Shown in pieces: positions 1 to 60,347 of a stretch of DNA of 64,000 bases. Position 1 is the first letter of the stretch; each line of letters starts with the position of its first letter. The translations under genes and the position numbers were made by a program. The notes under the pieces were generated by a model. That model worked only from the letters and a program-made list of their open reading frames with translations, searched no databases and was not told where the DNA came from. The stretch is from Ferrimonas lipolytica (GTDB lineage Bacteria > Pseudomonadota > Gammaproteobacteria > Enterobacterales > Shewanellaceae): contig NZ_CP051180.1 of the NCBI RefSeq assembly GCF_012295575.1, forward strand, positions 62,001-126,000. The letters run 5' to 3'.

Positions 1-72
1 ATGAACGAAGCGTGGATCTTTGTACAAGATGCTCAGCAGACCATGGACAACGCTGGTTACGACAAGTCGTAA
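1..72 (+). CDS. sirA: Octaheme sulfite reductase SirA, C-terminal fragment cut by the window edge
   Basis: The first 24 codons are in frame and identical in sequence to codons 663-685 plus stop of the complete sirA at 4223-6280, ending in TAA at 70-72. It is therefore the 3' end of a further sirA copy whose body lies left of the window. Nothing can be said about whether that upstream copy is intact. The same hairpin and accessory genes follow it as follow the complete sirA. Confidence 0.85.
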   Translation: MNEAWIFVQDAQQTMDNAGYDKS

Positions 73-89
73 TTAGTTAATCCAGATAA

Positions 90-118
90 CCCCGGCGCTT
101 CGGCGCTGGGGCTTTTCG
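90..118 (+). terminator. GC-rich UUCG hairpin after sirA (copy 1), attenuator or mRNA-stabilising
   Basis: CCCCGGCGC (90-98), loop TTCG, then GCGCTGGGG (103-111), with one G-U pair, followed by CTTTTC. It sits between sirA and the first accessory gene, which lacks another obvious promoter, so partial termination or 3'-end protection of the sirA message is likely. The identical hairpin recurs at 6298-6326. Confidence 0.8.
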
Positions 119-128
119 AGAAGATACC

Positions 129-551
129 ATGCGTACATTGATTGCAATTTTATTCACCTGTTTAAGCATTTTGCCTGTTTCGGCCTTGGCCGGCAGTGGT
201 GATGATATGGCGCCAGCGCAAGCGTACCGCTTAACCCTCGATTTCATCACCATGCAGGAAGCGGAAAGCTTGGTGGGTCAAGAAGGCGTTTACTTCTATG
301 ACGTCAACACACTGGAGTTATGGGCCGAAGGCTTTATCCCTGGTGCGGTGCACTTTTTTGTAGAGGATTGGAAGTCTCTATTACCCGAAGACAAGGATGC
401 TCACCTTATTTTTTACTGCGCAAACCGTCTGTGTAACGCCAGTGAAATCGCAGCGTATTCTGTGATGAAACTTGGTTACACCCACGTTCGTCAAATGCCG
501 GACGGTATATTTGGTTGGCGCATGTCTGGTCGTCCGACCGAACAACCTTAA
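129..551 (+). CDS. Secreted rhodanese-like protein of the sir cluster (copy 1)
   Basis: This 140-residue protein has an N-terminal signal peptide (residues 1-21, cleavage after ALA) and a single rhodanese-like domain. The active-site loop position holds Cys97 in the string YCANRLCNAS, with a second Cys at 102, so a cysteine that could carry persulfide or bind metal is present. It lies 57 bp after sirA, and a FKBP gene follows 41 bp later. A periplasmic role in handling sulfur species or assisting SirA maturation is inferred; no substrate can be read from sequence. Copy 1 has Gly53 where copy 2 has Asp53. It could equally be a non-catalytic rhodanese fold acting as a chaperone. Confidence 0.85.
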   Translation: MRTLIAILFTCLSILPVSALAGSGDDMAPAQAYRLTLDFITMQEAESLVGQEGVYFYDVNTLELWAEGFIPGAVHFFVEDWKSLLPEDKDAHLIFYCANRLCNASEIAAYSVMKLGYTHVRQMPDGIFGWRMSGRPTEQP

Positions 552-592
552 CAGTCGTATTGACCACAAATTGAATTAAGCGAGAGAGCACA

Positions 593-1387
593 ATGAAAAC
601 TTTGATTAAACCAACTTTAGCTGCCCTATCTGTTGTGGTAGCGATGGCTAGCCCTCTAGCACTGGCAAAAGCTGACTTAAACAGCGATGCCGACAAAGAA
701 TCTTATGCCATCGGTGCTTCTCTTGCGAAGTACACCGCTGGCCAATTAGCTACTCAAGAAGAGATGGGCCTAAACGCCAACATCGATCTGATTATCGAAG
801 GTTTCGCCGAAGCGTTACGCCAGCAGCCCCAGCTGGACACCGATACCATGTTAGACATGTTGAACGCTCGCGCCATCCGCTTGAATGAAGCCCAGCAACT
901 GCAAAAAGCCGCGTTCATTAAAGAAAATGAAAAAGCCGGTAAAGAATACTTGGCCAACAACAAGAAGTTGGATGGCGTAATTGAGACTGAATCCGGTCTG
1001 CAATACCAGGTACTGCGCAAGGGCACGGGTCCGAAGCCTGCGCCAGAAGACGTGGTAACCGTAAACTTCGTTGGTAAGACCATCGAAGGTTTTGAATTTG
1101 AAAACACCTTCGCCAAGGGTGCCCCAGCTCAAGTGGCGTTGATCAACGTAATTGATGGTTGGAACGAAGGTCTACAGCTGATGAAAGAGGGCGGTAAATA
1201 CCGCTTCGTAGTGCCAGCGGAACTGGCTTACGGCAACCAAGGTATGGGTGACATCAACCCGCAATCCACGCTGATTTTCGATATTGAGTTGGTGACGGTG
1301 GATGAACCTGGGGTGAACAACCCAATCAAGCAGATGATGCATGGCATGAGCATGGATCAGGCGTTGGGTCACAACGCGGCCGAGTAA
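593..1387 (+). CDS. Periplasmic FKBP-type peptidyl-prolyl isomerase with Met/His-rich tail (copy 1)
   Basis: This 264-residue protein has a signal peptide (residues 1-25), an FKBP N-terminal dimerisation region (about 28-130) and an FKBP catalytic domain (about 140-238) with typical strings such as VNFVGKTIEG and AELAYGNQG. A peptidyl-prolyl isomerase also accompanies the sulfite reductase in Wolinella (mccB), so folding of the large heme protein is its likely job. The last 20 residues are unusual: Met248, Met249, His250, Met252, Met254 and His260 form a cluster resembling periplasmic Cu(I)-binding segments. This end is also where the two copies diverge. The TPR gene starts 10 bp downstream, suggesting coupled translation. 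Confidence 0.92.
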   Translation: MKTLIKPTLAALSVVVAMASPLALAKADLNSDADKESYAIGASLAKYTAGQLATQEEMGLNANIDLIIEGFAEALRQQPQLDTDTMLDMLNARAIRLNEAQQLQKAAFIKENEKAGKEYLANNKKLDGVIETESGLQYQVLRKGTGPKPAPEDVVTVNFVGKTIEGFEFENTFAKGAPAQVALINVIDGWNEGLQLMKEGGKYRFVVPAELAYGNQGMGDINPQSTLIFDIELVTVDEPGVNNPIKQMMHGMSMDQALGHNAAE

Positions 1388-1397
1388 GGCAATCACC

Positions 1398-2090
1398 ATG
1401 TTAATGACGATCCTAGTAAGTATTTTGGTTGCGACCGCTGCTGTTCTTGGCTGGCAACACCGACGCATTGTGGCTGCTGATGACAGTGCGTTAGCCATCC
1501 TGCCAGAAACGGCTGTGACTGCGGTACCTGCTATACCGCGTTCCGCTCTTGCTGTGTCGGCATTGGCCATTGTGGTGGTTGGACTCAGTAGTGCGTTGTA
1601 TCTGCAAATGGGTCGCTACCACGACCACTTTACGCAGACCCCGGATCGTCAGTTGGATTACGTCTTGCGTGCGGAGCTACAGCAACTCGCGCAAGACGCT
1701 AATACCAGCGTTGAGCTGCAACAGTTGGCGCAAGGGTATGCCAAGGTTGGCCAATACGACCAAGCCGTTGCGACCATGTCGCGGTTGCTGGAGTACTTCG
1801 AACCGACAAGCCTCTACTTGGGGCTGCAAGCGAAGTTCAGCTACTACCGCGATGGCCGCGTTATCAGCGTCGAAACTCAACAATTAATCGACCAAAGTTT
1901 AGCGCTCAACCCTGCTGAGCCTGAAACTCTGTTGCTGTTAGCGAACCACGCTTACCTGCAACAGGATTACGCCCTCGCTATTTCTCACTGGCAAGCGTTG
2001 CTGACCGCTGCGCCAGTAGGACTAGACCAAACGCCGATACGACGCGCGGTGGCAAACGCCCAAGCCAAGCTTGCGGCGGCAAATTTATAA
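1398..2090 (+). CDS. CcmI-like TPR protein, apocytochrome c chaperone candidate (copy 1)
   Basis: This 230-residue membrane protein has two N-terminal hydrophobic segments (about residues 2-19 and 50-70) followed by TPR-type helical repeats to the end, including LALNPAEPETLLLLANHAY and YALAISHWQALL. The layout matches the CcmI/CycH/NrfG group, which holds apocytochromes for heme ligation. In a cluster whose main enzyme has an atypical heme motif, a dedicated apocytochrome handling role is the best guess. The first 15 residues differ strongly between the copies while the TPR part is nearly identical. Start chosen at the ATG 10 bp after the FKBP stop. Confidence 0.8.
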   Translation: MLMTILVSILVATAAVLGWQHRRIVAADDSALAILPETAVTAVPAIPRSALAVSALAIVVVGLSSALYLQMGRYHDHFTQTPDRQLDYVLRAELQQLAQDANTSVELQQLAQGYAKVGQYDQAVATMSRLLEYFEPTSLYLGLQAKFSYYRDGRVISVETQQLIDQSLALNPAEPETLLLLANHAYLQQDYALAISHWQALLTAAPVGLDQTPIRRAVANAQAKLAAANL

Positions 2091-2145
2091 CGATGATGAT
2101 GGACAGCTGCTTTCCGCTTTTTGTGGTGCAGCATTGGAGGATAAC

Positions 2146-2853
2146 GTGAATAACTCAACGCTTAATCGCCGCGGCTTTATTAAAAGCGTGGGCGTTGGTG
2201 GCGCTGCACTGACCGTGGTTGGTTGCAGCTCTAACAACGACACCGCTGATACAGATAAGCCCCACTACGTAATGGTGTTCGACCAAACCAAGTGTGTTGG
2301 TTGTGGCCGCTGTAAGGACGCTTGTAACAAGGTTAACTTCCTACCAGAAGGCATGGCTCGCTTAGACTTAGAGCGCCAAACTGACCGAGTTGAAGGTGAG
2401 GTTTGTCCTAAATGTGGCAAGACCGAATGTAACTGTGAACGCAAATACGTGCGCGTATCGTGTCAGCAGTGTCAGAACGCCCCTTGTGTGATGGTGTGTC
2501 CTACCGGTGCTGCTCATCGTGATGAAGAGACTGGCATTGTTACCATGAACCCAGACACCTGTGCTGGCTGTAAGTACTGCATCACAGCGTGCCCTTACAA
2601 CGTTCGTCAGATCAACCCAGACACCAAGGTCGCCGACAACTGCGATTTCTGTTTACACACCAACCTTGCCAAAGGTGAACTGCCGGGCTGTGTGCAAGAG
2701 TGTAAGTTTGGTGCGCTGAAGTTTGGCAACGCCAACGACAAGTCCTCTTACGTCTCTAAGCTGCTGGCAGCGAAGAACACTGAGCGTGTGAAAGAGCACT
2801 TTGGTACTGATCCAAGCCTGTACTACATCGCCATCACTAAAGAGGAGATTTGA
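2146..2853 (+). CDS. sirC: SirC, Tat-exported iron-sulfur lipoprotein, electron carrier (copy 1)
   Basis: GTG start at 2146, chosen because GGAGG lies at 2136-2140 and translation then begins directly at a Tat signal (Arg8-Arg9, RRGFIK); the frame is open further upstream without support. A lipobox-like VVGC puts the lipid-carrying Cys at 27. The 235-residue protein has Cys quartets at 50/53/56/60, 106/109/114/118, 139/142/145/149 and 166/169/182/186, as in NrfC/PsrB-type four-cluster ferredoxins. An extra CPKC-x4-CNC group at 87-97 is also present. Its role is to pass electrons from SirD to SirA in the periplasm (family knowledge). Stop and next start are two bases apart. Confidence 0.93.
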   Translation: MNNSTLNRRGFIKSVGVGGAALTVVGCSSNNDTADTDKPHYVMVFDQTKCVGCGRCKDACNKVNFLPEGMARLDLERQTDRVEGEVCPKCGKTECNCERKYVRVSCQQCQNAPCVMVCPTGAAHRDEETGIVTMNPDTCAGCKYCITACPYNVRQINPDTKVADNCDFCLHTNLAKGELPGCVQECKFGALKFGNANDKSSYVSKLLAAKNTERVKEHFGTDPSLYYIAITKEEI

Positions 2854-2855
2854 TC

Positions 2856-3803
2856 ATGACTGGCATCGATTTCTCTACCGGTTTAGGCGGCACCGTTGCG
2901 TGGCCTTGGCCGATTGCCGTTTACCTGTTTTTCGCTGGGATCTCCGGTGGTGCGTTAACCATCGCCTTGATGATGCGTTTTTACAAGAACCAAACTGACA
3001 ACACGCCACTGCTGAAAGGCGCCACCGTTGCTGGTTTCGTTGGTATTGCTCTGGGTATGTTGTGTCTGGTTCTCGACTTAACCAACCCGCTGTTCTTCTG
3101 GAAGATCTTGGTTTTCTATAACTTCCAGTCAGTAATGAGCTTGGGTGTGGTTGTATTAATGGCGTTCATTCCGCTGAGCGCACTGTTGGCCGCTTACGCT
3201 TTACGCGAAGAGCTGAATCAACTGCCTAAATCACTGCACTTCATATTGCCAGTGGTCGATGCATTAGTACGCTTCCGCCGCCCATTGGAGATGTTGACTC
3301 TGGTACTGGCTATCGCCGTCTGTGCTTACACCGGTTTCCTTATCTCAGCGTTGATCCGCTTCCCGTTGATCAATACTTCAGTGTTGCCAGCGTTGTTTGT
3401 TGCCTCTGGCTTGTCTGCTGGTGCAGCGGTAGCCAAGGTATTGGCAGTGAAGTTCTTCAAAGAAGATCTGCACAGTGCTGAAATGAATGTATTGCACAAG
3501 GTTGAGTGGCCAGTAATGGCGGTTGAAGCTCTGTTCATCTTTATGCTGTTTAGCAGCTTGATCTTTGGTGGCAGCGCCGGCAGTAACGCTTTGATGGCAT
3601 TCTCAGGTGGCGTTTGGACCAATCTATTTTGGTTTGGTGTAGTTGGCTTAGGTTTTGCGTTACCACTGTTGTTTAGCTTTGGCTTAGGCAAGAAATTTGC
3701 CCACTCTAGCCAAGCGTTCTATATGACCAGCGCCAGTGTGGTTTGCGGCATGATGTGTTTGCGGATGTTCCTACTGTACGCAGGTCAGATCTACTCAATC
3801 TAA
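2856..3803 (+). CDS. sirD: SirD, NrfD/PsrC-type membrane quinol dehydrogenase subunit (copy 1)
   Basis: This protein of about 315 residues has eight or so transmembrane helices and the NrfD/PsrC family pattern (WPWPIAVYLFFAGISGG near the N-terminus). It should oxidise menaquinol in the membrane and hand electrons to SirC. ATG at 2856 was chosen because AGAGGAG (2841-2847) is 8 bases upstream; a TTG at 2850 would overlap the sirC stop. The product is nearly identical to copy 2, with only silent changes seen near the end. A strong terminator at 3834 closes this operon before the next sirA. Confidence 0.93.
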   Translation: MTGIDFSTGLGGTVAWPWPIAVYLFFAGISGGALTIALMMRFYKNQTDNTPLLKGATVAGFVGIALGMLCLVLDLTNPLFFWKILVFYNFQSVMSLGVVVLMAFIPLSALLAAYALREELNQLPKSLHFILPVVDALVRFRRPLEMLTLVLAIAVCAYTGFLISALIRFPLINTSVLPALFVASGLSAGAAVAKVLAVKFFKEDLHSAEMNVLHKVEWPVMAVEALFIFMLFSSLIFGGSAGSNALMAFSGGVWTNLFWFGVVGLGFALPLLFSFGLGKKFAHSSQAFYMTSASVVCGMMCLRMFLLYAGQIYSI

Positions 3804-3833
3804 TTGACAGCCCGATAACTAGATCGAAATCCC

Positions 3834-3858
3834 AAAGCCTGCTTATGCAGGCTTTTTT
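3834..3858 (+). terminator. Rho-independent terminator after sirD copy 1
   Basis: AAAGCCTGC, loop TTAT, GCAGGC, then six T. It separates the first operon from the full-length sirA transcript. The counterpart after copy 2 has the same stem but a broken T-tract. Confidence 0.88.
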
Positions 3859-4222
3859 AATGCGCTAGGTTAATTGCGCCGTAGCTCGCCCCATTGAAGC
3901 TCATTGCCTCCTGAGAATATGGTCTGCGTGATTAGCGTAGGTTGTTACTGTATTTTTGTGATCTTAGTGTGAATCTCGATTCGCTAAAAGATCTAAAAAA
4001 ACCTAAAAAAGAATGAAAAAGTTTCAATTAATTTGAAATAAATTACTGTTTTTAAAGTGAATTAATTTTCCCTTAAGTTTGATTAGTGAACGCTAAATGA
4101 ATTGTGTTCCCAGCTCACTTTTTCTTGGTTGTTATTCGGCAAAATGCGTTTCGGTTACTTGCGGTGGCCAGAGAAAAACTGACTTCTGCTGGCCATTTAG
4201 CGATAACGATAACTAGGAGAGA
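3859..4222 (+). promoter_or_regulatory. Upstream region of the complete sirA: AT-rich, with inverted repeats
   Basis: This 364-bp gene-free region is AT-rich from about 3990 to 4100. A short inverted repeat TTTCAA-5-TTGAAA lies at 4022-4038. A CRP-like left half TGTGATC lies near 3958, without a matching right half. A second hairpin in the leader is listed separately. AGGAGA at 4215-4220 is the ribosome binding site. No convincing sigma-70 promoter was identified by eye. The region left of copy 1's sirA is outside the window, so it is unknown whether it is repeated. Confidence 0.55.
4165..4195 (+). promoter_or_regulatory. Leader hairpin 27 bp before the sirA start
   Basis: TGGCCAG (4165-4171) pairs with CTGGCCA (4189-4195) around a 17-base loop. 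It would form in the 5' untranslated region of the sirA message and could serve stability or act as an operator. The function is not known. Confidence 0.45.
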
Positions 4223-6280
4223 ATGATGAAAACCTGGAAAACCAAAGCAAGCCTTGTTGCTGTTCTGTGCGCTGCTGCACTGGGCGCTCAAGCAAGCGGT
4301 CACAGCGATGCGCCAGATATCGGCCCTCGCAGTGCTGACGGCCATCAAATGTCCCCGCAATCTCGCGGTGTATTTGCTAACCCTAAACCAACGTTAGAAA
4401 CTCGCGGTGTACGAACACTGCACGACTACATCATCACTGAAAAAGAGATGTGGGATTTCTTGTTTGAAAATCACCCGATTTTCAAAACCTACATCCCAGA
4501 AGGTCGTATCGTCGGTAAGCCACACATCTCTGACCGTGGTGAAGAGTACCTGCACACTGGTAACTCCGAGCAATACACTGCAGATTCTGATGATGGTTCT
4601 CACCGCACCAAAGCGGTTCAGTACCGTTTGGGCGCTAAGTCTATCTTGGACTTCCCTAACAAGTTCATCGGTCCTGAAGCTTGTGGCGAGTGTCACGCGG
4701 TTCAGTACGAAAAATGGTCTCGCTCCCGTCACGCTAAAGTGGTTCGTTTCCCAGATGAAATGGAAGAAGTTGGCGGCGATCTGAAGAAGCCTGCTCACGG
4801 TGGCAAAAACGGCCTGCTGCCAGAAGGTATCACTGCTGATGCCATCTACGCGGTTATTGGTACTCCACGTACCAAATACGGTTTCTTGGATTCTTACCTA
4901 GTACGTGGTTCTTACACCGTACGTGGCGGCTTGCTGAAAGACGGTACTGGTACTGTTCACGCGGGTTCTAACCAGTTCTCCATGAACTGGACCACCTTCC
5001 TGACTCCTGAGAAGGCGCGTGAGATTGCTGAAGTGATCCCAACCTTCCCAACCAAGATGGAAGAGTTTGGTAACTCTGGCTCCAACACCTGGGGTGTTAA
5101 CTCCTACGGTGCTAAGCAAGACAAAGAGTTCTTGTTCCAGCCAGCTTCTTCTTACTGTGAAGTGTGTCACACCTTCAAGTTCGATTACCAAACCAAAGAA
5201 GACTTCTTCGCTGATCTGGGTAACCCAGAAGCGTTGCGCGAGCACACCATCTCTAAAGGTATCTCTTGTGAAGAGTGTCACGGCGCTGGCGCTCACTTGG
5301 ATGGCGGTGTAGGCGGCGGTATGCCTTCTAACTGTGAACGTTGTCACCAGCGTTTCAACTACGTGTCTGATATGGCTGAAGGCCCTAACGCCAAGCCTGA
5401 AGATGGCTTTAACGTGAAGATGAAGGGTTCTTGCCCATCTTGTGGTACCGAAGGTTCCCAGATGTTCAACTCCGCTCACTACGAAAAAGGCATGCGCTGT
5501 ACTACTTGTCACGATCCACACGAAGTGACTGAAGGCAGCTACCTGACCAGCGTTACCAAGACCAACCTGAAGAAAGAGTGTGAAGACTGTCACGCTACTC
5601 AGCTTGAGTTCTTTAAGACCAACGCACCTCACGGCGAAAACAGCTGTTCTTCTTGTCACATGCCGAACATGGGCTCTTGTGAGAAGTTCACTGCGATCCA
5701 GTTCCCAGACCAAGCAGGCTTCGACAACGTTCGTGCTTCGCACATCTGGAACATCAAAGTGGATCCAATCGCGAAGACTCTGAACCCGCCAGAAGGCAAG
5801 CCACGTACTTCTGACGTGAAGGGTTGGACTGTAGCGAAAGACGAAGACAACCACGCTTACCTTGATTTGATGTGGACCTGTGCTCGTACTTCTTCACAGG
5901 ACATCACGGTTCTGAACGGTAAAGGCTGTCACTCTCAGTTCCAGTCTGAGTTGGATGAAGGCTTGCACTTCGAAGACCAGAAAGAGATCTACGGTGAAGT
6001 AATGGAATGGCAGGGTCCGGTACAGGAGCTGCACGCCAAAGTTATTAACCAGATCGCTCGCATTGACGAACTGATGAACATCACTCGCCTGTCTATCTCT
6101 GAGAAAGCCAGCGTAATGATGATGGTAGACAAAGCTCGCCAGAACGTTGCTCTGATTGAGAAAGACGGTTCTTGGGGTGTTCACGGTCCTGCCATGGCGA
6201 AACGCCTGATGAACGAAGCGTGGATCTTTGTACAAGATGCTCAGCAGACCATGGACAACGCTGGTTACGACAAGTCGTAA
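4223..6280 (+). CDS. sirA: Dissimilatory sulfite reductase, octaheme cytochrome c (SirA/MccA family)
   Basis: This is a periplasmic terminal reductase of 685 residues with a signal peptide (cleavage near AQA-SG, about 25), reducing sulfite to sulfide by six electrons. Seven standard heme motifs CxxCH occur at 154, 312, 349, 371, 426, 453 and 475. The eighth is the family hallmark, C553-x15-C569-H570. Three cysteines lie outside heme motifs, Cys404, Cys407 and Cys486, and are candidates for the Cu(I) ligands known at the MccA active site. A C-terminal helical bundle follows. The start could be ATG 4223 or the adjacent ATG 4226; AGGAGA at 4215 fits either. It heads the second sir unit and is followed by a UUCG hairpin that should raise its level over downstream genes. 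Confidence 0.95.
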
Positions 6281-6297
6281 TTAGTTAATCCAGATAA

Positions 6298-6326
6298 CCC
6301 CGGCGCTTCGGCGCTGGGGCTTTTCG
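6298..6326 (+). terminator. GC-rich UUCG hairpin after sirA (copy 2)
   Basis: Identical to the hairpin at 90-118: CCCCGGCGC, loop TTCG, GCGCTGGGG, then CTTTTC. It lies between the sirA stop (6280) and the rhodanese-like gene (6337), so it probably sets the ratio of sirA to accessory transcripts. Confidence 0.8.
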
Positions 6327-6336
6327 AGAAGATACC

Positions 6337-6759
6337 ATGCGTACATTGATTGCAATTTTATTCACCTGTTTAAGCATTTTGCCTGTTTCGGCCTTGGCCG
6401 GCAGTGGTGATGATATGGCGCCAGCGCAAGCGTACCGCTTAACCCTCGATTTCATCACCATGCAGGAAGCGGAAAGCTTGGTGGGTCAAGAGGACGTTTA
6501 CTTCTATGACGTCAACACACTGGAGTTATGGGCCGAAGGCTTTATCCCTGGTGCGGTGCACTTTTTTGTAGAGGATTGGAAGTCTCTATTACCCGAAGAC
6601 AAGGATGCTCACCTTATTTTTTACTGCGCAAACCGTCTGTGTAACGCCAGTGAAATCGCAGCGTATTCTGTGATGAAACTTGGTTACACCCACGTTCGTC
6701 AAATGCCGGACGGTATATTTGGTTGGCGCATGTCTGGTCGTCCGACCGAACAACCTTAA
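6337..6759 (+). CDS. Secreted rhodanese-like protein of the sir cluster (copy 2)
   Basis: Same 140-residue protein as at 129-551: signal peptide, one rhodanese-like domain, candidate active-site Cys97 and neighbouring Cys102. The only amino-acid difference seen is Asp53 in place of Gly53, in the stretch before the central strand of the domain, so one of the two is a recent change. Probable periplasmic partner in SirA function or maturation (inferred from position). Confidence 0.85.
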   Translation: MRTLIAILFTCLSILPVSALAGSGDDMAPAQAYRLTLDFITMQEAESLVGQEDVYFYDVNTLELWAEGFIPGAVHFFVEDWKSLLPEDKDAHLIFYCANRLCNASEIAAYSVMKLGYTHVRQMPDGIFGWRMSGRPTEQP

Positions 6760-6800
6760 CAGTCGTATTGACCACAAATTGAATTAAGCGAGAGAGCACA

Positions 6801-7595
6801 ATGAAAACTTTGATTAAACCAACTTTAGCTGCCCTATCTGTTGTGGTAGCGATGGCTAGCCCTCTAGCACTGGCAAAAGCTGACTTAAACAGCGATGCCG
6901 ACAAAGAATCTTATGCCATCGGTGCTTCTCTTGCGAAGTACACCGCTGGCCAATTAGCTACTCAAGAAGAGATGGGCCTAAACGCCAACATCGATCTGAT
7001 TATCGAAGGTTTCGCCGAAGCGTTACGCCAGCAGCCCCAGCTGGACACCGATACCATGTTAGACATGTTGAACGCTCGCGCCATCCGCTTGAATGAAGCC
7101 CAGCAACTGCAAAAAGCCGCGTTCATTAAAGAAAATGAAAAAGCCGGTAAAGAATACTTGGCCAACAACAAGAAGTTGGATGGCGTAATTGAGACTGAAT
7201 CCGGTCTGCAATACCAGGTACTGCGCAAGGGCACGGGTCCGAAGCCTGCGCCAGAAGACGTGGTAACCGTAAACTTCGTTGGTAAGACCATCGAAGGTTT
7301 TGAATTTGAAAACACCTTCGCCAAGGGTGCCCCAGCTCAAGTGGCGTTGATCAACGTAATTGATGGTTGGAACGAAGGTCTACAGCTGATGAAAGAGGGC
7401 GGTAAATACCGCTTCGTAGTGCCAGCGGAACTGGCTTACGGCAACCAAGGTATGGGTGACATCAACCCGCAATCCACGCTGATTTTCGATATTGAGTTGG
7501 TGACGGTGGATGAACCTGGGGTGAACAACCCAATCAAACAGATGATGCATGGCATGAGCATGGATCAGGCTCTAGGCCACCAAGCAGCCGAGTAA
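6801..7595 (+). CDS. Periplasmic FKBP-type peptidyl-prolyl isomerase with Met/His-rich tail (copy 2)
   Basis: Same 264-residue product as copy 1 (593-1387), with signal peptide, N-terminal dimerisation region and FKBP catalytic domain. The Met/His cluster at 248-260 is kept although the DNA beneath its last codons is rewritten: only Asn261 changes to Gln. Silent change at nearly every variable position over the last eight codons suggests the tail is under protein-level constraint. It is followed after 10 bp by the TPR gene. Confidence 0.92.
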   Translation: MKTLIKPTLAALSVVVAMASPLALAKADLNSDADKESYAIGASLAKYTAGQLATQEEMGLNANIDLIIEGFAEALRQQPQLDTDTMLDMLNARAIRLNEAQQLQKAAFIKENEKAGKEYLANNKKLDGVIETESGLQYQVLRKGTGPKPAPEDVVTVNFVGKTIEGFEFENTFAKGAPAQVALINVIDGWNEGLQLMKEGGKYRFVVPAELAYGNQGMGDINPQSTLIFDIELVTVDEPGVNNPIKQMMHGMSMDQALGHQAAE

Positions 7596-7605
7596 GACCA
7601 ACATC

Positions 7606-8298
7606 ATGCTACTGATTATTTTAACCGCCATTCTATTTGTTGCCGCTGCTGTTCTTGGCTGGCAACACCGACGCATTGTGGCTGCTGATGACAGTGCGTT
7701 AGCCATCCTGCCAGAAACGGCTGTGACTGTGGTACCGGCTATACCGCGTTCCGCTCTTGCTGTGTCGGCATTGGCCATTGTGGTGGTTGGACTCAGTAGT
7801 ACGTTGTATCTGCAAATGGGTCGCTACCACGACCACTTTACGCAGAGCCCGGATCGTCAGTTGGATTACGTCTTGCGTGCGGAGCTACAGCAACTCGCGC
7901 AAGACGCTAATACCAGCGTTGAGCTGCAACAGTTGGCGCAAGGGTATGCCAAGGTTGGCCAATACGACCAAGCCGTTGCGACCATGTCGCGGTTGTTGGA
8001 GTACTTCGAACCGACAAGCCTCTACTTGGGGCTGCAAGCGAAGTTCAGCTACTACCGCGATGGCCGCGTTATCAGTGTCGAAACTCAACAACTGATCGAC
8101 CAAAGTTTAGCGCTCAACCCTGTTGAGCCTGAAACTCTGTTGCTGTTAGCGAACCACGCTTACCTGCAACAGGATTACGCCCTCGCTATTTCTCACTGGC
8201 AAGCGTTGCTGACCGCTGCGCCAGTAGGACTAGACCAAACGCCGATACGACGCGCGGTGGCAAACGCCCAAGCCAAGCTTGCGGCGGCCAATTTATAA
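7606..8298 (+). CDS. CcmI-like TPR protein, apocytochrome c chaperone candidate (copy 2)
   Basis: Homologue of 1398-2090, also 230 residues. The first membrane segment is encoded by clearly different DNA and reads LLIILTAILFVAAAVLG against LMTILVSILVATAAVLG in copy 1, so hydrophobicity is kept while sequence is not. Further changes include Ala to Val and Ala to Thr substitutions before and within the second membrane segment, and Ala to Val in the TPR part. This is the most divergent gene of the duplicated set. The two membrane helices plus TPR layout suggests the CcmI/NrfG group. Confidence 0.8.
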   Translation: MLLIILTAILFVAAAVLGWQHRRIVAADDSALAILPETAVTVVPAIPRSALAVSALAIVVVGLSSTLYLQMGRYHDHFTQSPDRQLDYVLRAELQQLAQDANTSVELQQLAQGYAKVGQYDQAVATMSRLLEYFEPTSLYLGLQAKFSYYRDGRVISVETQQLIDQSLALNPVEPETLLLLANHAYLQQDYALAISHWQALLTAAPVGLDQTPIRRAVANAQAKLAAANL

Positions 8299-8353
8299 CG
8301 ATGATGATGGACTGCTGCTTTCCGCTTTTTGTGGTGCAGCATTGGAGGATAAC

Positions 8354-9061
8354 GTGAATAACTCAACGCTTAATCGCCGTAGCTTTATTAAAAGCGTAGG
8401 CGTTGGTGGCGCTGCACTGACCGTGGTTGGTTGCAGCTCTAACAACGACACCGCTGATACAGATAAGCCCCACTACGTAATGGTGTTCGACCAAACCAAG
8501 TGTGTTGGTTGTGGCCGCTGTAAGGACGCTTGTAACAAGGTTAACTTCCTACCAGAAGGCATGGCTCGCTTAGACTTAGAGCGCCAAACTGACCGAGTTG
8601 AAGGTGAGGTTTGTCCTAAATGTGGCAAGACCGAATGTAACTGTGAACGCAAATACGTGCGCGTATCGTGTCAGCAGTGTCAGAACGCCCCTTGTGTGAT
8701 GGTGTGTCCTACCGGTGCTGCTCATCGTGATGAAGAGACTGGCATTGTTACCATGAACCCAGACACCTGTGCTGGCTGTAAGTACTGCATCACAGCGTGC
8801 CCTTACAACGTTCGTCAGATCAACCCAGACACCAAGGTCGCCGACAACTGCGATTTCTGTTTACACACCAACCTTGCCAAAGGTGAACTGCCGGGCTGTG
8901 TGCAAGAGTGTAAGTTTGGTGCGCTGAAGTTTGGCAACGCCAACGACAAGTCCTCTTACGTCTCTAAGCTGCTGGCAGCGAAGAACACTGAGCGTGTGAA
9001 AGAGCACTTTGGTACTGATCCAAGCCTGTACTACATCGCCATCACTAAAGAGGAGATTTGA
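8354..9061 (+). CDS. sirC: SirC, Tat-exported iron-sulfur lipoprotein (copy 2)
   Basis: GTG start at 8354 behind GGAGG, as in copy 1. The Tat motif here is RRSFIK (copy 1 has RRGFIK), slightly closer to the S-R-R-x-F-L-K consensus. The remaining product appears identical: lipobox Cys27, four ferredoxin-like Cys quartets and the additional CPKC-x4-CNC group at 87-97. It should link SirD to SirA electronically. Confidence 0.93.
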   Translation: MNNSTLNRRSFIKSVGVGGAALTVVGCSSNNDTADTDKPHYVMVFDQTKCVGCGRCKDACNKVNFLPEGMARLDLERQTDRVEGEVCPKCGKTECNCERKYVRVSCQQCQNAPCVMVCPTGAAHRDEETGIVTMNPDTCAGCKYCITACPYNVRQINPDTKVADNCDFCLHTNLAKGELPGCVQECKFGALKFGNANDKSSYVSKLLAAKNTERVKEHFGTDPSLYYIAITKEEI

Positions 9062-9063
9062 TC

Positions 9064-10011
9064 ATGACTGGCATCGATTTCTCTACCGGTTTAGGCGGCA
9101 CCGTTGCGTGGCCTTGGCCGATTGCCGTTTACCTGTTTTTCGCTGGGATCTCCGGTGGTGCGTTAACCATCGCCTTGATGATGCGTTTTTACAAGAACCA
9201 AACTGACAACACGCCACTGCTGAAAGGCGCCACCGTTGCTGGTTTCGTTGGTATTGCTCTGGGTATGTTGTGTCTGGTTCTCGACTTAACCAACCCGCTG
9301 TTCTTCTGGAAGATCTTGGTTTTCTATAACTTCCAGTCAGTAATGAGCTTGGGTGTGGTTGTATTAATGGCGTTCATTCCGCTGAGCGCACTGTTGGCCG
9401 CTTACGCTTTACGCGAAGAGCTGAATCAACTGCCTAAATCACTGCACTTCATATTGCCAGTGGTCGATGCATTAGTACGCTTCCGCCGCCCATTGGAGAT
9501 GTTGACTCTGGTACTGGCTATCGCCGTCTGTGCTTACACCGGTTTCCTTATCTCAGCGTTGATCCGCTTCCCGTTGATCAATACTTCAGTGTTGCCAGCG
9601 TTGTTTGTTGCCTCTGGCTTGTCTGCCGGTGCAGCGGTAGCCAAGGTATTGGCAGTGAAGTTCTTCAAAGAAGATCTGCACAGTGCTGAAATGAATGTAT
9701 TGCACAAGGTTGAGTGGCCAGTAATGGCGGTTGAAGCTCTGTTCATCTTTATGCTGTTTAGCAGCTTGATCTTTGGTGGCAGCGCCGGCAGTAACGCTTT
9801 GATGGCATTCTCAGGTGGCGTTTGGACCAATCTATTTTGGTTTGGTGTAGTTGGCTTAGGTTTTGCGTTACCACTGTTGTTTAGCTTTGGCTTAGGCAAG
9901 AAATTTGCCCACTCTAGCCAAGCGTTCTACATGACCAGCGCCAGTGTGGTTTGCGGCATGATGTGTTTGCGGATGTTCCTACTGTACGCAGGTCAAATTT
10001 ACTCAATTTGA
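9064..10011 (+). CDS. sirD: SirD, NrfD/PsrC-type membrane quinol dehydrogenase subunit (copy 2)
   Basis: Same protein as 2856-3803 with about eight transmembrane helices; the differences seen are silent and cluster in the last 100 bp. The stop is TGA here and TAA in copy 1, marking the right end of the duplicated block. ATG 9064 was chosen for the AGAGGAG ribosome binding site 8 bases upstream. nosL follows after 94 bp with a leaky hairpin in between. Confidence 0.93.
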   Translation: MTGIDFSTGLGGTVAWPWPIAVYLFFAGISGGALTIALMMRFYKNQTDNTPLLKGATVAGFVGIALGMLCLVLDLTNPLFFWKILVFYNFQSVMSLGVVVLMAFIPLSALLAAYALREELNQLPKSLHFILPVVDALVRFRRPLEMLTLVLAIAVCAYTGFLISALIRFPLINTSVLPALFVASGLSAGAAVAKVLAVKFFKEDLHSAEMNVLHKVEWPVMAVEALFIFMLFSSLIFGGSAGSNALMAFSGGVWTNLFWFGVVGLGFALPLLFSFGLGKKFAHSSQAFYMTSASVVCGMMCLRMFLLYAGQIYSI

Positions 10012-10048
10012 TATACGCTAAAACCGTAAAGTGTGATTGATTTAAATT

Positions 10049-10074
10049 AAAGCCTGCTCTGCAGGCTTTATTGT
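10049..10074 (+). terminator. Hairpin after sirD copy 2, probably leaky
   Basis: AAAGCCTGC, loop TCT, GCAGGCTTT, then ATTGTT. The stem matches the terminator after copy 1 but the T-tract is interrupted, so read-through into nosLDFY is plausible. Confidence 0.6.
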
Positions 10075-10105: not shown

Positions 10106-10642
10106 ATGATTAAAAAGATTTTTCTGCCGATTTTGACGGTTATTGCGCTGTTTGGTTTAAGCGCGTGTAACTCAGCTGAATCGTCTGATAAACCAGTAAA
10201 AACTGTTGACCTTAGCATCGACGATTCGCGCCGTTGCCACCAGTGCGGCATGATGATTACTAAGTACCCTGGACCGAAGGGCGTGATCACCATTAATGGC
10301 CAAGATGAAACCTTAGCGTTCTGCTCTAGCCGCGACATGTTCCAGTTCGCGCTGCAGCCACAGAACCAACGCCAAATCGAAACCATGCATGTTCACGATA
10401 TGGGTAAGACCGAGTGGAGCAAGCCGGATGATAAGGCGTTTATTGATGCCTCCAGTGCAGTGTATGTATACGGCACTACCGCCAAAGCGGTAATGGGTCC
10501 TGCTGTTGTACCTTTCTCATCCAAAGAAGCGGCTGAAGAACATATTGCTATGTTTGGTGGCAAGCTTTACAGCTTTAAAGAAATCACCTTAGACCTGCTG
10601 GAAAAGGGCGCTATGGGTGGTGGTCATCATCATAAACACTAA
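10106..10642 (+). CDS. nosL: NosL-type copper-binding lipoprotein
   Basis: This 178-residue protein has a lipoprotein signal ending in LSAC with Cys21 as the lipid anchor. The NosL motif CHQCGMM (44-50) follows, then the NosL fold with FCSSRDMF further on, and a His-rich tail (MGGGHHHKH) at the C-terminus. NosL delivers Cu(I) to nitrous oxide reductase in denitrifiers; no nosZ is present here, and the sirA neighbour belongs to a family with a Cu(I)-heme site, so copper supply to SirA is the natural inference. nosD starts inside its last codons, so translation is coupled. Confidence 0.93.
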   Translation: MIKKIFLPILTVIALFGLSACNSAESSDKPVKTVDLSIDDSRRCHQCGMMITKYPGPKGVITINGQDETLAFCSSRDMFQFALQPQNQRQIETMHVHDMGKTEWSKPDDKAFIDASSAVYVYGTTAKAVMGPAVVPFSSKEAAEEHIAMFGGKLYSFKEITLDLLEKGAMGGGHHHKH

Positions 10643-11960
10643 GGTGTATCGGCTGGCGTTGTTACTGGCGTTATTGCTGGGCAGCAATGGCGTGATCGCC
10701 GCGACCTGGCTGGTTAACGATGACGCTAGCCTTGCAGCGGCGTTAGCTAAAGCAAAAGCCAAAGATGTACTGACGTTGGCGCCTGGGCTGTATCAAGGTG
10801 GAGTGGAGATAGCTACTGCGGTTCGCCTAGTTGGTACTGGTGATGCGGTTTTTGATGCTCAAGGGATAGGTTCTGGGCTCATTATTAATGCCAGTGACGT
10901 TGCAGTGAGTGGGATATCTGTACGCAATTACGGCGGCGATCTCTATAACAAAGACGCTGGCATTTTAATCGAGGCAGGGCAGAGCAATATTACTCTGCGC
11001 AACAATCTACTCAGCGGTCCCGGTTTTGGTATTCGTGTCGACGATAGCAACGGCATCAATATCAGTGGCAATACTATCCACGGCGATGTGGCCGTGCCGG
11101 TCATCATGCGTGGCGATGGCATTCATCTTAAGCAAGTGAATGATATCGTGGTTGAGGCTAATCAAATCGATTCGGTGCGAGACGCAATCTACCTCGAAAC
11201 AGGCAAAGGTGCCCGCATTGATGACAATGTGGTGCGTTTTAGTCAGTACCCAGTCCATTTTATGTACTTTGACAACGCCACGCTTAATGGTAATCGCTCC
11301 GATGACAGTGATGGTGGCTACGCCTTAATGAGCTCGGAAAACATTGAGCTTGATGACAATCAAGTCAGTGGCGCCCGCGAGTTTGGCATATTGTTGAACA
11401 TGTCGACCGCCTGTGAGGTACTAAATAATACCGTAGAAGCGGTGATTAACCCCCGCGCAAAAGAGATGTTTGATGGCGAAGGCAAAGGGGTGTTTATCTA
11501 CGGAGCTCGTGATAATTCGGTGCACCACAATCGTTTTATCGGCTCTGAGATCGGTATTTCGATGGCACTGGGCGGTGAAGGTAACCTGATCTACGGTAAT
11601 CAGTTTTTGGGTAACCAACAACAGGTGAAATACGTAGGCAGCGGTGCAGTGAACTGGAGTTACCAAGGCGAAGGCAACTATTGGGATAATCACCAAGGTT
11701 GGGATCTAAACCGCGATGGCATCAGCGATCAGGCCTTTGTTCCTAATGACGCACTCGATCGTCTCTTTTGGATCTATCCAGAAGCACGCTTCTTAATGGA
11801 CAGCCCGGTAGTAGCGCTGCTGCGTTGGCTTGATAGTCAATTAAGCAAGCCCGCGCCGACAGGGGTTTACGATCCATTTCCGTTGATGGTGCAGCGCGAT
11901 AGCAACCCCATCAACCCATTACTTACATCTGCTGGGAGAACCGGCGGTAACGACATCTAA
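10617..11960 (+). CDS. nosD: NosD-like periplasmic beta-helix copper-maturation protein
   Basis: Up to 447 residues: signal peptide (hydrophobic run LALLLALLLG, cleavage near VIAA), then a right-handed parallel beta-helix of CASH-type repeats with many short N-x-I and G-x-x-I turns (about 60-330), as in NosD. The start is ambiguous: GTG 10617 lies inside nosL, GTG 10644 just after it; both keep the signal peptide. NosD works with the NosFY ABC transporter in copper-centre assembly of nitrous oxide reductase. Here it should serve the copper-heme site of SirA (inference from context). Confidence 0.88.
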   Translation: MVVIIINTKVYRLALLLALLLGSNGVIAATWLVNDDASLAAALAKAKAKDVLTLAPGLYQGGVEIATAVRLVGTGDAVFDAQGIGSGLIINASDVAVSGISVRNYGGDLYNKDAGILIEAGQSNITLRNNLLSGPGFGIRVDDSNGINISGNTIHGDVAVPVIMRGDGIHLKQVNDIVVEANQIDSVRDAIYLETGKGARIDDNVVRFSQYPVHFMYFDNATLNGNRSDDSDGGYALMSSENIELDDNQVSGAREFGILLNMSTACEVLNNTVEAVINPRAKEMFDGEGKGVFIYGARDNSVHHNRFIGSEIGISMALGGEGNLIYGNQFLGNQQQVKYVGSGAVNWSYQGEGNYWDNHQGWDLNRDGISDQAFVPNDALDRLFWIYPEARFLMDSPVVALLRWLDSQLSKPAPTGVYDPFPLMVQRDSNPINPLLTSAGRTGGNDI

Positions 11961-12024: not shown

Positions 12025-12921
12025 ATGACAAACGTAGTTGAAGTGACCCAACTGGGGAAACACTTCAGTGAACAGTGGGCGCTACGAGGGCTTAGCTTTT
12101 CCCTAGCGGAAGGCGAGTTGTTGGCGTTGCTGGGCCACAACGGTGCGGGTAAAACCACACTGATAAAACAGATTTTAGGGTTGGTTGTTCCAGATGAGGG
12201 ACAAGTACGGGTGTTGGGCAAGGATCCCGCCGATAAGGCTCATCGTGGAGAGTTGTCGATGGGCTATCTGCCCGAACAGGTCAATTTGTACGATAACCTC
12301 AGTGGGTTCGAAGTACTGCAGTACTTTGCCAAACTACGTGGTTGCAATGATGAACGAGTTGACGCGCTTCTACAGCAACAGGGTTTAGCGGCGGCGGCTC
12401 ATCAACGTGTCGCGACCTATTCCAAGGGGATGAAACAACGGTTAGGGTTAGCCCAAGCGTTGCTAACTAAACCGAAGCTGCTGCTGTTGGATGAACCAAC
12501 GGTAGGGCTTGATCCCAGTGCTTCGATGGCCTTCTATCAGCAGATCGCAGATCTGCGGCAGCAGGGCACGGCGGTGATCATCTGTACCCACGAATTAACG
12601 CTGATTGAGCCACACCTAGATCGAGCATTGATCTTAGCCAAAGGCCAAAACCGAGGCTTAGGTACTCTAGTTGAACTGCAACAACGCAGCGGGTTGCGGA
12701 GCAAACTACAGTTGCCTGACAGCTTGCCGCCGTTGCTGGGTAGTGATCCGTACATCAGGCAGTACGATCGGAACGAACATGCGATTCATTTCGCCCCAAG
12801 CGAACAGGCTGAACTGGTACAGCACCTCTGTAATCATTGTGGTTGCAGTGACTTTTCTATTGCTACCGTTGGCCTTGGTGAGATTTATCACCACTGCCAA
12901 CAACAGGAGCTGAGCCAATGA
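12025..12921 (+). CDS. nosF: NosF-like ABC transporter ATPase
   Basis: This is a 298-residue cytoplasmic ATP-binding subunit. Walker A GHNGAGKTT lies near residue 38, the signature YSKGMKQRLGL near 132, Walker B LLLLDEPTVGLDP near 155 and the switch His in ICTHE. It pairs with the membrane protein encoded next, whose ATG overlaps its stop by 4 bases. It lies 64 bp after nosD, with a small CAGCGC/GCGCTG hairpin in the gap. It energises the NosD-NosY complex in metal-centre maturation. Confidence 0.92.
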   Translation: MTNVVEVTQLGKHFSEQWALRGLSFSLAEGELLALLGHNGAGKTTLIKQILGLVVPDEGQVRVLGKDPADKAHRGELSMGYLPEQVNLYDNLSGFEVLQYFAKLRGCNDERVDALLQQQGLAAAAHQRVATYSKGMKQRLGLAQALLTKPKLLLLDEPTVGLDPSASMAFYQQIADLRQQGTAVIICTHELTLIEPHLDRALILAKGQNRGLGTLVELQQRSGLRSKLQLPDSLPPLLGSDPYIRQYDRNEHAIHFAPSEQAELVQHLCNHCGCSDFSIATVGLGEIYHHCQQQELSQ

Positions 12922-13727
12922 GTATGACTACAACTGTTGCTGGGAAAGAGTTCCGCGATGGGGTGCGTAGCCGCTGGCTGCTGTTGTTAACCATACTGCT
13001 GACGGCACTATCGTTGTTGATCTGCCATTTTGGCGGAGCTGGGCAGGGCAGCAGCGAATTGGTGCCACTGGAGCAGATGCTGCTGTCGTTGAGTACTTTG
13101 ATGGCGGTAATGGTGCCGCTGATCGCTATTTTGATCAGTTACGACGCCATTGTTGGTGAGCAGGAACAAGGCACGCTACTGTTGTTGTTAAGCTACCCGT
13201 TATCGCGAAACCAACTGCTGTTGGGAAAGTTCGTCGGCCATGGGGCGATTTTAGGATTAACGTTGTCCCTGACGTTTTGCATTAGTGCGCTGTCGCTACT
13301 GCCCTATAACGTTGATGTCGAAGCCGTTGCGCTAGGTTTTGTCCAACTCGGTTTTAACAGCTTGTTACTCGGTTTGGTATTTATGGCATTAGCGCTGTGG
13401 TTGAGCTGCCGTGCGATAAGCAAAGGGCGGGCACTGGCTCAGTTATTTGGAATTTGGGTGACCTTAGTTTTGCTGTGGGATCTGGCTCTGTTAGCTCTGT
13501 TAGTTGCGGATGCGGGCTTCGCTGGCGTCGTCGGTTATATGGTATGGTTTAATCCCGTTGACCTGTTCCGATTAACAACCCTACTCGCCCAGCAGTCGGA
13601 GTCGGTAACAGGGGCATTGTCGTTGTTTGCTGATGTGGACCTTCATTGGGGAATCGCCACTACCGCGTTGTTCTCATGGCTGTTTTTATTGGGCTTTGCG
13701 GCTGCTAAGCAATTGGCAACTAAGTAA
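12918..13727 (+). CDS. nosY: NosY-like ABC transporter permease
   Basis: This 269-residue integral membrane protein of the ABC-2 type has about six helices and a large hydrophilic loop near the N-terminus. Order and overlap with nosF identify it as NosY, the membrane part of the maturation ABC complex. What it moves, possibly a sulfur species, is not settled for the family. It is the last gene of the sir-nos cluster, with a weak terminator after it. Confidence 0.9.
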   Translation: MSMTTTVAGKEFRDGVRSRWLLLLTILLTALSLLICHFGGAGQGSSELVPLEQMLLSLSTLMAVMVPLIAILISYDAIVGEQEQGTLLLLLSYPLSRNQLLLGKFVGHGAILGLTLSLTFCISALSLLPYNVDVEAVALGFVQLGFNSLLLGLVFMALALWLSCRAISKGRALAQLFGIWVTLVLLWDLALLALLVADAGFAGVVGYMVWFNPVDLFRLTTLLAQQSESVTGALSLFADVDLHWGIATTALFSWLFLLGFAAAKQLATK

Positions 13728-13913: not shown

Positions 13914-15185
13914 GTGAAGCTGACCCCTGATGCTGTGTTAGATCAACAAGCTAAATTGCTGCGCGACAGCAACAGTGGTGAAGAGATCAGCTTAACATTT
14001 GCCGAAACTAAGGTATTAGCATGCCTTGCCGAATCGGAAGGAGAGATCATCTCGAAAGAGGATCTGCTTCAGGTTGGCTGGCCAGAACGAGTGGTTGCAG
14101 CTACTTCGTTGACGCAATGCATTAGTACCCTGCGAAAGAAGCTTGAGCCTTATCCCCAATTGCAATTAAAAACTCTGCCTCGTCGCGGCTATCAATTACA
14201 TATTGAGCGTCCCGTGGTTGCACCAGTAGAGCCAGAGAAAGCGCCGGAGGAGGCCAAATCTCCACGCACCAATACTATGTTGGGCTCCTTTATGGTGGTG
14301 TTGCTGTCGGTGATCATTTTTGTCTGGTACATGAGTGATTATCACCACATGCTACAGGAGCGTTTGCAGTGGCAAAGTGACAGCAAAGTTACCCTAAATG
14401 TCGGTGGCATTCGGGGTGATGCCAAGCTGTTTTATCGTGGCGATAATATCAATGTTGAAGCCAACATGTGGCAGAAGCATTTGGCCCCAGAGCACAATCA
14501 TGCGGATCTATTCCGACGTTTTGGTGCTTTCGCTAGTTCCGATGGCAACAACTACTCGATTGGGATCTGTCCCGATTACGTTGAGGGTTATTGCTCAGGC
14601 AAGAAATTGTTGAACATTGCCGCCACTGAACATAAGCCAGCAGGGCTTAACTTTGATAAGTTTTTGACCACTCGAAAGGTTATGGAAGACCGGATTAAGT
14701 ACAACCGGATGCCGATGTTGCCGAACGACGGTTATCACGGTGAGGTGTTGGAGCATTACTACCACACTAATATTTACTTCCCGGTTGCCGACCAACTGTT
14801 GGTTCGGGCTGATTTTAGTATGTCGTTCGTCTATGAGGCGGAGAACCGAGGGGTATTCTTCTCATCTACCTGTTTGACTGACGAAACCTGTGAAACCACT
14901 CCGGTTAAGTACAAGATGACTGGGCGCTTCGAACAATATGAGCAACATATTGGTGATGAGGTCGTTGAGGTATTTCATGTAACGCTTACCTCCAAAGAGC
15001 TAACTGAACCAGAAACAGTGAGCCCTGCGGCACTAAACTTCTATCGCAAGCTGCGCAAACAAAGCATCTTTGATGAGGAGTTGTATTTCTACCGAGTCTA
15101 TCAGGATGACGATACCGCGGTATGGTTGGTGCCACTGATGGGGGATCTGTCGGTATGGATGACTCGCTCCAAGCTAGCGATGTGA
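13914..15185 (+). CDS. ToxR-like transmembrane transcriptional regulator
   Basis: This 423-residue protein has an N-terminal winged-helix DNA-binding domain of the OmpR/ToxR type (about 5-97, ending in LPRRGYQL), a linker, one membrane helix (about 122-140) and a periplasmic domain of some 280 residues. The periplasmic part has Cys in CPDYVEGYC and in STCLTDETCE, which could form disulfides. GTG start at 13914 behind GGGAGA. It directly follows the sir-nos cluster on the same strand, but a 186-bp gap with a hairpin separates them. Control of sulfite respiration is possible yet unproven. The signal sensed is unknown. Confidence 0.85.
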   Translation: MKLTPDAVLDQQAKLLRDSNSGEEISLTFAETKVLACLAESEGEIISKEDLLQVGWPERVVAATSLTQCISTLRKKLEPYPQLQLKTLPRRGYQLHIERPVVAPVEPEKAPEEAKSPRTNTMLGSFMVVLLSVIIFVWYMSDYHHMLQERLQWQSDSKVTLNVGGIRGDAKLFYRGDNINVEANMWQKHLAPEHNHADLFRRFGAFASSDGNNYSIGICPDYVEGYCSGKKLLNIAATEHKPAGLNFDKFLTTRKVMEDRIKYNRMPMLPNDGYHGEVLEHYYHTNIYFPVADQLLVRADFSMSFVYEAENRGVFFSSTCLTDETCETTPVKYKMTGRFEQYEQHIGDEVVEVFHVTLTSKELTEPETVSPAALNFYRKLRKQSIFDEELYFYRVYQDDDTAVWLVPLMGDLSVWMTRSKLAM

Positions 15186-60161: not shown

Positions 60162-60196
60162 CCCATTCCATTGCAACCGCGCCTAAAATTCCTCCA

Positions 60197-60223
60197 TAAG
60201 AGTGACATTGTTTGCCACTCTTA
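60197..60223 (+). terminator. Hairpin after ligE
   Basis: TAAGAGTG and CACTCTTA with an 11-base loop, 36 bp after the stop; no good T-run, so a weak terminator at best. Confidence 0.35.
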
Positions 60224-60347
60224 GCTTCGGCTATTCACTGTTTTTGCCAGCGATTTGCACGAAATAACACGTTGCAATTGCGTCTTAGTAGCCAAAATTA
60301 GAGAATACCGCCGCCTACAAATTTATTCTCTGTTTTCAGGAGCAACA

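Follow-up and report, generated by a model that had tools for sequence, protein, structure and literature searches.

Two sir operons, which encode a sulfite-respiration system of the SirA/MccA type, stand side by side in the chromosome of Ferrimonas lipolytica and are nearly identical in their coding parts. Does such a pair record a recent duplication, or an old one whose copies were later made alike? We addressed this question in a stretch of 64,000 nucleotides (the window, C1:62001–126000 of a single-contig chromosome of 4,133,133 bp; genome label G000), reading beyond its left edge where needed. We consider it highly probable that the tandem duplication is old and that at least two later conversions overwrote most of one copy, leaving two promoters in front of practically the same enzyme. 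This reading is favored because the spacer between the copies does not match either flank as a fresh duplication would, and because the differences between the copies are uneven. The locus is the known SirA/MccA sulfite-respiration system in tandem duplicate, for which sulfite reduction is predicted. The enzyme system is already known, and the new information is the conversion mosaic.

Anatomy of the tandem sir repeat

An earlier reading of the window made from its letters alone (the sequence-only reading) had described a head-to-tail repeat of six SirA/MccA-system genes with a period of 6,208 bp. The self-match of the window bears this out: bases 1–3799 match 6209–10007 head-to-tail at an offset of 6,208 bp. 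When read past the left window edge, the full repeat comprises genome positions 59891–65799 and 66099–72007, which align over 5,912 columns with 98.92% identity, 58 mismatches and two gap openings. Each unit has six genes in the order sirA, rhodanese, FKBP, sirG, sirC and sirD, and the last gene of copy 2 ends at window position 10011. The repeat is composed as follows, in window coordinates.

1–3799, + strand: repeat copy 1, the part in the window; the whole copy (genome 59891–65799) begins 2,110 bp left of the window
1–72, + strand: 3′ end of sirA copy 1; whole gene at genome 60015–62072
129–551, + strand: rhodanese-like protein, copy 1 (PF00581, E 1.7e-10)
593–1387, + strand: FKBP-type peptidyl-prolyl isomerase, copy 1 (PF00254 and PF01346)
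1330–1434, + strand: diverged island of copy 1 at the FKBP stop and sirG start (30 mismatches in 105 bp, ungapped)
1398–2090, + strand: sirG-like TPR apocytochrome chaperone of the CcmI/NrfG type, copy 1 (NrfG model E 6.9e-12, below its cut-off)
2140–2853, + strand: sirC-like Fe–S protein of the NrfC type, copy 1 (start codon uncertain)
2850–3803, + strand: sirD-like membrane subunit of the NrfD type, copy 1 (PF03916, E 1.2e-64)
3800–4098, no strand: intercopy spacer, with a promoter part that is related to the left flank of copy 1 yet strongly diverged from it
4099–10007, + strand: repeat copy 2 (genome 66099–72007)
4223–6280, + strand: sirA copy 2, octaheme sulfite reductase (MccA 4rkm match; seven CXXCH and one CX15CH)
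6337–6759, + strand: rhodanese-like protein, copy 2
6801–7595, + strand: FKBP-type isomerase, copy 2
7538–7642, + strand: diverged island, copy 2
7606–8298, + strand: sirG-like gene, copy 2
8348–9061, + strand: sirC-like gene, copy 2 (start codon uncertain)
9058–10011, + strand: sirD-like gene, copy 2

The sequence-only reading had also allowed for more units to the left of position 1. The sequence there carries ccmF, ccmH and dsbE-like genes on the opposite strand, the heme-lyase side of the locus. A whole-genome search found exactly two full sirA genes (60015–62069 and 66223–68277), the other two of its four matches being partial and 25–26% identical (E 4.3e-4). Further units leftward are ruled out by this count together with the reading of the left flank. 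It is scarcely credible that the assembly falsely doubled a single unit, even with reads and depth outside the analysis. The copies lie on a single contig, differ by their 58 mismatches and gaps, and have distinct flanks and a unique spacer; moreover, tandem pairs too diverged to be artefacts occur in the single-contig assembly G002 and in three other Ferrimonas assemblies.

The sirA product matches MccA of Wolinella succinogenes (PDB 4rkm) with an E-value of 1.4e-201 over residues 8–678. Both SirA copies contain seven CXXCH motifs (positions 154–475) and one CX15CH motif (553), and they differ at two residues only, 32 and 64. By alignment only, Cys407 and Cys486 of SirA correspond to two MccA cysteines, which we take to be Cu(I) ligands near the active heme. 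The likeness to MccA (PDB 4rkm and 4rkn) therefore comprises the sequence, the aligned cysteines and the CX15CH motif. A single locus combines the SirC/SirD electron-transfer pair, the SirG chaperone and a lyase of the CcmF/CcmH type. As far as the relevant part of PMC6976685 describes it, the sir system of Shewanella oneidensis MR-1 (sirAIGCDJKLM, sirEFG and sirR) likewise has an octaheme SirA with a CX15CH-type site, a SirG-type chaperone, SirC, SirD, a CcmF/CcmH-type heme lyase and a ToxR-family regulator near the locus. Unlike in that description, sirA–sirD of F. lipolytica occur twice in tandem with near-identical coding sequences, MR-1 copy number being outside this comparison. The heme lyase of Wolinella is CcsA1 according to the same part of PMC6976685, whereas the neighbors in F. 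lipolytica are of the CcmF/NrfE and CcmH types. A literature search, judged by titles and abstract openings, returned no description of a sir duplication in Ferrimonas.

Mosaic of differences between the copies

To locate the differences we use L009 numbering, from which window positions are obtained by subtracting 6000. An ungapped comparison at the fixed offset of 6,208 bp gives 66 mismatches between L009 3891 and 9803. First, the segment 3943–7329 has 4 mismatches in 3,387 bp (0.12%). It is followed by the island at the FKBP/sirG junction (7330–7434), with 30 mismatches in 105 bp (28.6%). The remaining segments have 14 in 756 bp (1.85%; 7435–8190), 1 in 1,531 bp (0.07%; 8191–9721) and 5 in 82 bp (6.1%; 9722–9803), and the other 12 mismatches lie at 3900–3942, outside the five segments. 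Segment borders were chosen after the mismatches had been viewed, and the corresponding Fisher values (6e-8 and 1.8e-6) overstate the significance; random-placement tests are independent of the borders. One 400-bp stretch holds 34 mismatches, a count that never exceeded 16 in 2,000 random placements, and the copies share an identical run as long as 2,078 bp, where 5,000 placements gave none above 962 bp. The codons of sirA show no synonymous and two nonsynonymous differences.

Outside the coding parts the copies are related at a much lower level. The promoter parts beyond the identical stretch (L009 3700–3885 and its counterpart) give an alignment score that 0 of 1,000 shuffles reach, with 113 identities, 55 mismatches and 36 gap positions (about 67% alike). 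Similarly, the promoter side of the 299-bp spacer and the left flank share 157 identities, with 71 mismatches, over about 246 bp. The post-operon sequences share a hairpin, and their local alignment score is reached by 0 of 1,000 shuffles. These diverged promoters, together with the island, indicate a duplication that would be older than the identity of the genes suggests.

A recent tandem duplication by unequal crossing-over, in which the near-identity would reflect short time, would account for the 98.9% identity, the absence of synonymous sirA differences and the tandem arrangement, and the two G000 sirA copies do group together in the tree. However, a fresh duplication would have copied the spacer as well, and the 299-bp spacer is diverged from the left flank and resembles the right flank only locally, around the hairpin. 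Mismatches amount to 29% inside the internal island and are far from evenly spread. We therefore regard a recent origin as improbable. The sequence-only reading had left the choice between recent amplification and ongoing gene conversion; the tandem duplication and the conversion alternative hold, and recent amplification is given up, since promoters, spacer and island are too diverged for it.

In the favored explanation, an ancestral sir operon would have been tandemly duplicated long ago. The upstream unit would have its own promoter and a terminator-like hairpin, and the downstream unit would run on, wholly or in part, into nosLDFY. Two or more gene conversions (or equivalent double crossovers) between the adjacent units would later have overwritten most of one copy, sparing the promoters, the post-operon sequence and the 105-bp FKBP/sirG island, all of which were left diverged.

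Duplicated sir loci in Ferrimonas and Shewanella

To place the pair, we compared it with the sir loci of relatives. SirA is present in all 14 Ferrimonas genomes searched and in two copies in six of them. The arrangement is tandem in G000, G002, G003, G006 and G009, that is, in four of the 13 congeners, and the copies of G010 lie on separate large contigs. nosL occurs in each unit of the G002 and G003 arrays, and not so in those of G000, G006 and G009. Within genomes, identity over the aligned unit is 83.0% (G002) and 86.4% (G003), and over aligned pieces it is 79.3–79.9% (G006 and G009). The synonymous divergence (dS) of sirA, sirC and sirD together is 0.72 in G002, 0.49 in G003, 0.97 in both G006 and G009, and 0.76 in the dispersed pair of G010. 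The G000 paralogs are far more alike than orthologs, with a dS of 0.009 between them and of 1.05 from copy 1 to each G010 copy. Single-copy draft genomes may conceal collapsed repeats; single-copy G012 is one contig. G007 was omitted from the trees, and Duodenibacillus and Shewanella indica were omitted from the gene trees with approximately unbiased (AU) tests.

The dispersed copies of G010 (F. senticii) bear on a further explanation, in which long-separated or foreign sir copies came together: a related operon would have been transferred or relocated beside the resident one and then homogenized. Two diverged copies on separate large contigs would suit this, as would the sirG tree, where the ccm-side copy of G010 joins the G000 copies (99/95) and a union of the G010 copies is marginally rejected (p-AU 0.044). 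The sirC tree weakly groups the same ccm-side copy with G000 (79/87), and the sirG and sirC groupings fit, marginally, a duplication that would predate the split of G000 and G010. However, the sirA, sirD and fkbp trees unite the two G010 copies (100/100, 100/99 and 100/99), the sirG arrangement is rejected for sirA (p-AU 3e-12), and the sirG result rests on long branches. With the tandem order between ccm and nosLDFY found in four other Ferrimonas genomes, a plain tandem duplication is simpler, and we give transfer or relocation little likelihood.

Several results weigh against an old duplication homogenized by conversion. In the sirA tree the G002/G003 and the G006/G009 copies cluster by position, and a tree that instead unites the two copies of one genome is rejected for G003 (p-AU 2e-63) and for G006 (6e-81). 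Between G006 and G009, paralogs are more alike than orthologs in 0 of 24 windows of 250 bp, with one tie. Homogenization is thus not general. Regarding the G000 copies themselves, the score of a global alignment of the post-operon sequences is reached by 228 of 1,000 shuffles. Their two promoters are not separated by position in the promoter tree and group together (91% support in the Shimodaira–Hasegawa-like approximate likelihood-ratio test), in an alignment that includes homogenized bases; this grouping does not point to an origin that predates the species. Lastly, the species is represented by one strain, and conversion is inferred rather than seen directly, so that either copy may have been the donor.

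The G003 array has many windows from rhodanese to sirD in which its paralogs are more alike than the G002 copy 1 ortholog. The G003 fkbp, sirG and sirD trees do not settle this pattern, and the sirC tree rejects the G003 pair (p-AU 0.0009). A single genus-wide ancestral duplication behind all arrays was also considered, and the sirA tree gives it no support, as the G002/G003 and G006/G009 pairs split within their own clades. An ancient duplication with early homogenization could still be accommodated.

Other Ferrimonas loci depart from this organization. In G007 (L034), a divergent SirA (52–56% identity) is accompanied by rhodanese, FKBP, TPR, ccmF and ToxR-type genes, and no sirC, sirD or nosLDFY match was found within 20 kb. 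The dispersed copy of G010 (L037, 8305–15646) is followed by a ToxR-type regulator, and the partner contig has ccm and nosLDFY. G011 (L047/L039), titled Marinobacter nauticus DP3N21-5 and classed in the Ferrimonas genus, has a sirA that groups with copies of the F. balearica type.

In a 394-genome sample of the order, SirA was found at an E-value of 1e-80 in 13 genomes. In Shewanella it is present in 73 of 129 genomes, 24 of which have two matches (E 1e-100). Among these 24, G443 (second match with stops) was not fetched, G314 was compared separately and 22 pairs were aligned. Identity of sirA at the DNA level is 75.5–83.8% in these 22 pairs, 83.4–86.6% in five Ferrimonas pairs and 99.9% in G000, the only one above 95% among the 28 within-genome pairs aligned alike (75.5–86.6% in the other 27). 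Duplicated sir loci are frequent, and the near-identity of the G000 pair is exceptional. The Shewanella genome G314 (L072) also has head-to-tail sir units, 9.3 kb apart with a ToxR-type gene between them; unlike in G000, its SirA copies are 78% identical as protein.

Most of the 22 Shewanella sirA pairs (L075–L118) have one copy that starts MMRRWK and another that starts MMKSWK or MMKNWK, which suggests two old paralog classes common to several species. Some Shewanella copies appear to be decaying, with sirA-like frames that contain internal stops at G446 C1:2366892–2368919 and G443 C29:8621–9889. In S. indica and S. carassii (L049 and L054) the sirG-like gene is directly followed by nosL, and neither sirC nor sirD was matched in the 22-kb stretches; electrons may reach SirA from a different donor there.

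Transcription units, copper supply and significance

How the two units are transcribed, and what follows them, bears on what a homogenized pair would provide. The features concerned are the following.

3834–3858, + strand: terminator-like hairpin of copy 1, with a 9-bp stem and then T6 (−14.8 kcal/mol, z −3.7)
10048–10070, + strand: related hairpin between sirD copy 2 and nosL, without an unbroken T-run (−14.4 kcal/mol)
10106–10642, + strand: nosL-like copper chaperone (PF05573, E 3.3e-45)
10617–11960, + strand: nosD-like gene (TIGR04247, above cut-off)
12025–12921, + strand: nosF-like ABC ATPase (PF00005; named from its position after nosD)
12918–13727, + strand: nosY-like ABC-2 permease (PF12679; named from its position)
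13914–15185, + strand: ToxR-type regulator, candidate SirR (PF00486; a related gene adjoins Shewanella sir loci)

The hairpin of copy 2 is followed by TTGTTATA and then by nosL. The sequence-only reading had taken the copies for separate operons, the first closed by a strong terminator. Separate operons remain probable, and the hairpin with T6 is seen, both hairpins being candidate terminators of uncertain strength. A consensus scan counted the hairpin after copy 2 among its terminator-like sites, with 5 T in 8 bases, which speaks against read-through into nosLDFY, and its list lacks the copy 1 hairpin; the scan performs at chance level (1 promoter-like site versus 12.8 in shuffles, and 15 terminator-like sites versus 15.1). 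In Ferrimonas, the units without nosL downstream have a hairpin and T6 in four of four cases (G000 copy 1, G006 copy 1, G009 copy 1 and the dispersed G010 unit), which include one orthologous pair, G006 and G009. Where nosL comes next, three of 15 units have at least five T directly after the hairpin (G004, G010 beside ccm and G013, by inspection); the G013 hairpin is imperfect and was missed by the script, and G007 was left out of this table. The remaining 12 of 15 (for example L028, L029, L030 and L032) have a sirD–nosL hairpin without a directly following T-run of five. This hairpin is perhaps a transcript-stabilizing or attenuating element. Most likely there are two transcription units, and the second would include nosLDFY at least in part. 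Visual inspection showed a TGTG...TCAC element in front of each sirA copy, with a spacing one base longer than that of a standard CRP site.

In 13 of the 15 sir stretches compared, the last sirD is followed by nosL and nosD (exceptions L034 and L037), and 13 contain a ToxR-type match (exceptions L031 and L038; in the L031 genome it is farther upstream, in L062). No NosZ above cut-off (TIGR04244 and TIGR04246) was found in the 14 Ferrimonas genomes, in a search whose sensitivity was not demonstrated: it had no positive control, as six of 14 control genomes matched and none exceeded the cut-off. Matches below cut-off occur in one and 11 of the 14 Ferrimonas genomes with the two models and are confined to the final ~60 positions of the model, as would be expected for the CuA domain of oxidases. 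A nitrous-oxide operon is disfavored by the 0 of 14 count. MccA-type sulfite reductase is counted among the cuproenzymes, and NosL is described as the Cu(I) chaperone of NosZ, in the part of PMC7558416 that treats them. Because no NosZ exceeds the cut-off and nosLDFY follows sirD in related loci, nosLDFY is probably the copper-supply part of the sir operon, feeding SirA. The genes sirJ–M of S. oneidensis would correspond to nosLDFY. Periplasmic octaheme heme–copper SirA would take electrons from quinol via SirC and SirD, mature through the adjoining heme lyase with SirG, and receive copper from the shared NosLDFY. The cell would likely gain a larger amount of SirACD, whose expression may answer to two regulatory inputs. 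Selection by sulfite load, which the sequence-only reading had suggested, would be a further conjecture.

According to PMC6053082, it is very rare for concerted evolution to persist over hundreds of millions of years; among its examples are the ammonia-oxidation operons that Nitrosomonadales carry in several copies. In that paper amoCAB, haoAB and cycAB are, like the G000 pair, respiratory operons whose paralogs have stayed similar, and recurrent gene conversion is given as the chief cause. Unlike in Nitrosomonadales, one of the six Ferrimonas pairs is homogenized, which is not a long-lasting common state. We offer only as a doubtful extension that repeated conversion would homogenize the enzyme genes while sparing promoters, operon ends and the sirG start; two differently regulated operons, only one with the copper genes, would then form a dosage pair that maintains itself and is under split control.

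In summary, nosLDFY would be tied to sulfite respiration in a genus where the NosZ search found none. The sir pair of F. lipolytica would be a clean natural example of kilobase-long near-identity that invites the wrong conclusion of a recent amplification, when the flanking sequence preserves traces of an older duplication followed by conversion. Ferrimonas and Shewanella often carry duplicated sir loci, but only one of 28 pairs was nearly identical, and the locus may therefore help to ask under what conditions duplicated respiratory operons homogenize and under what conditions they diverge.

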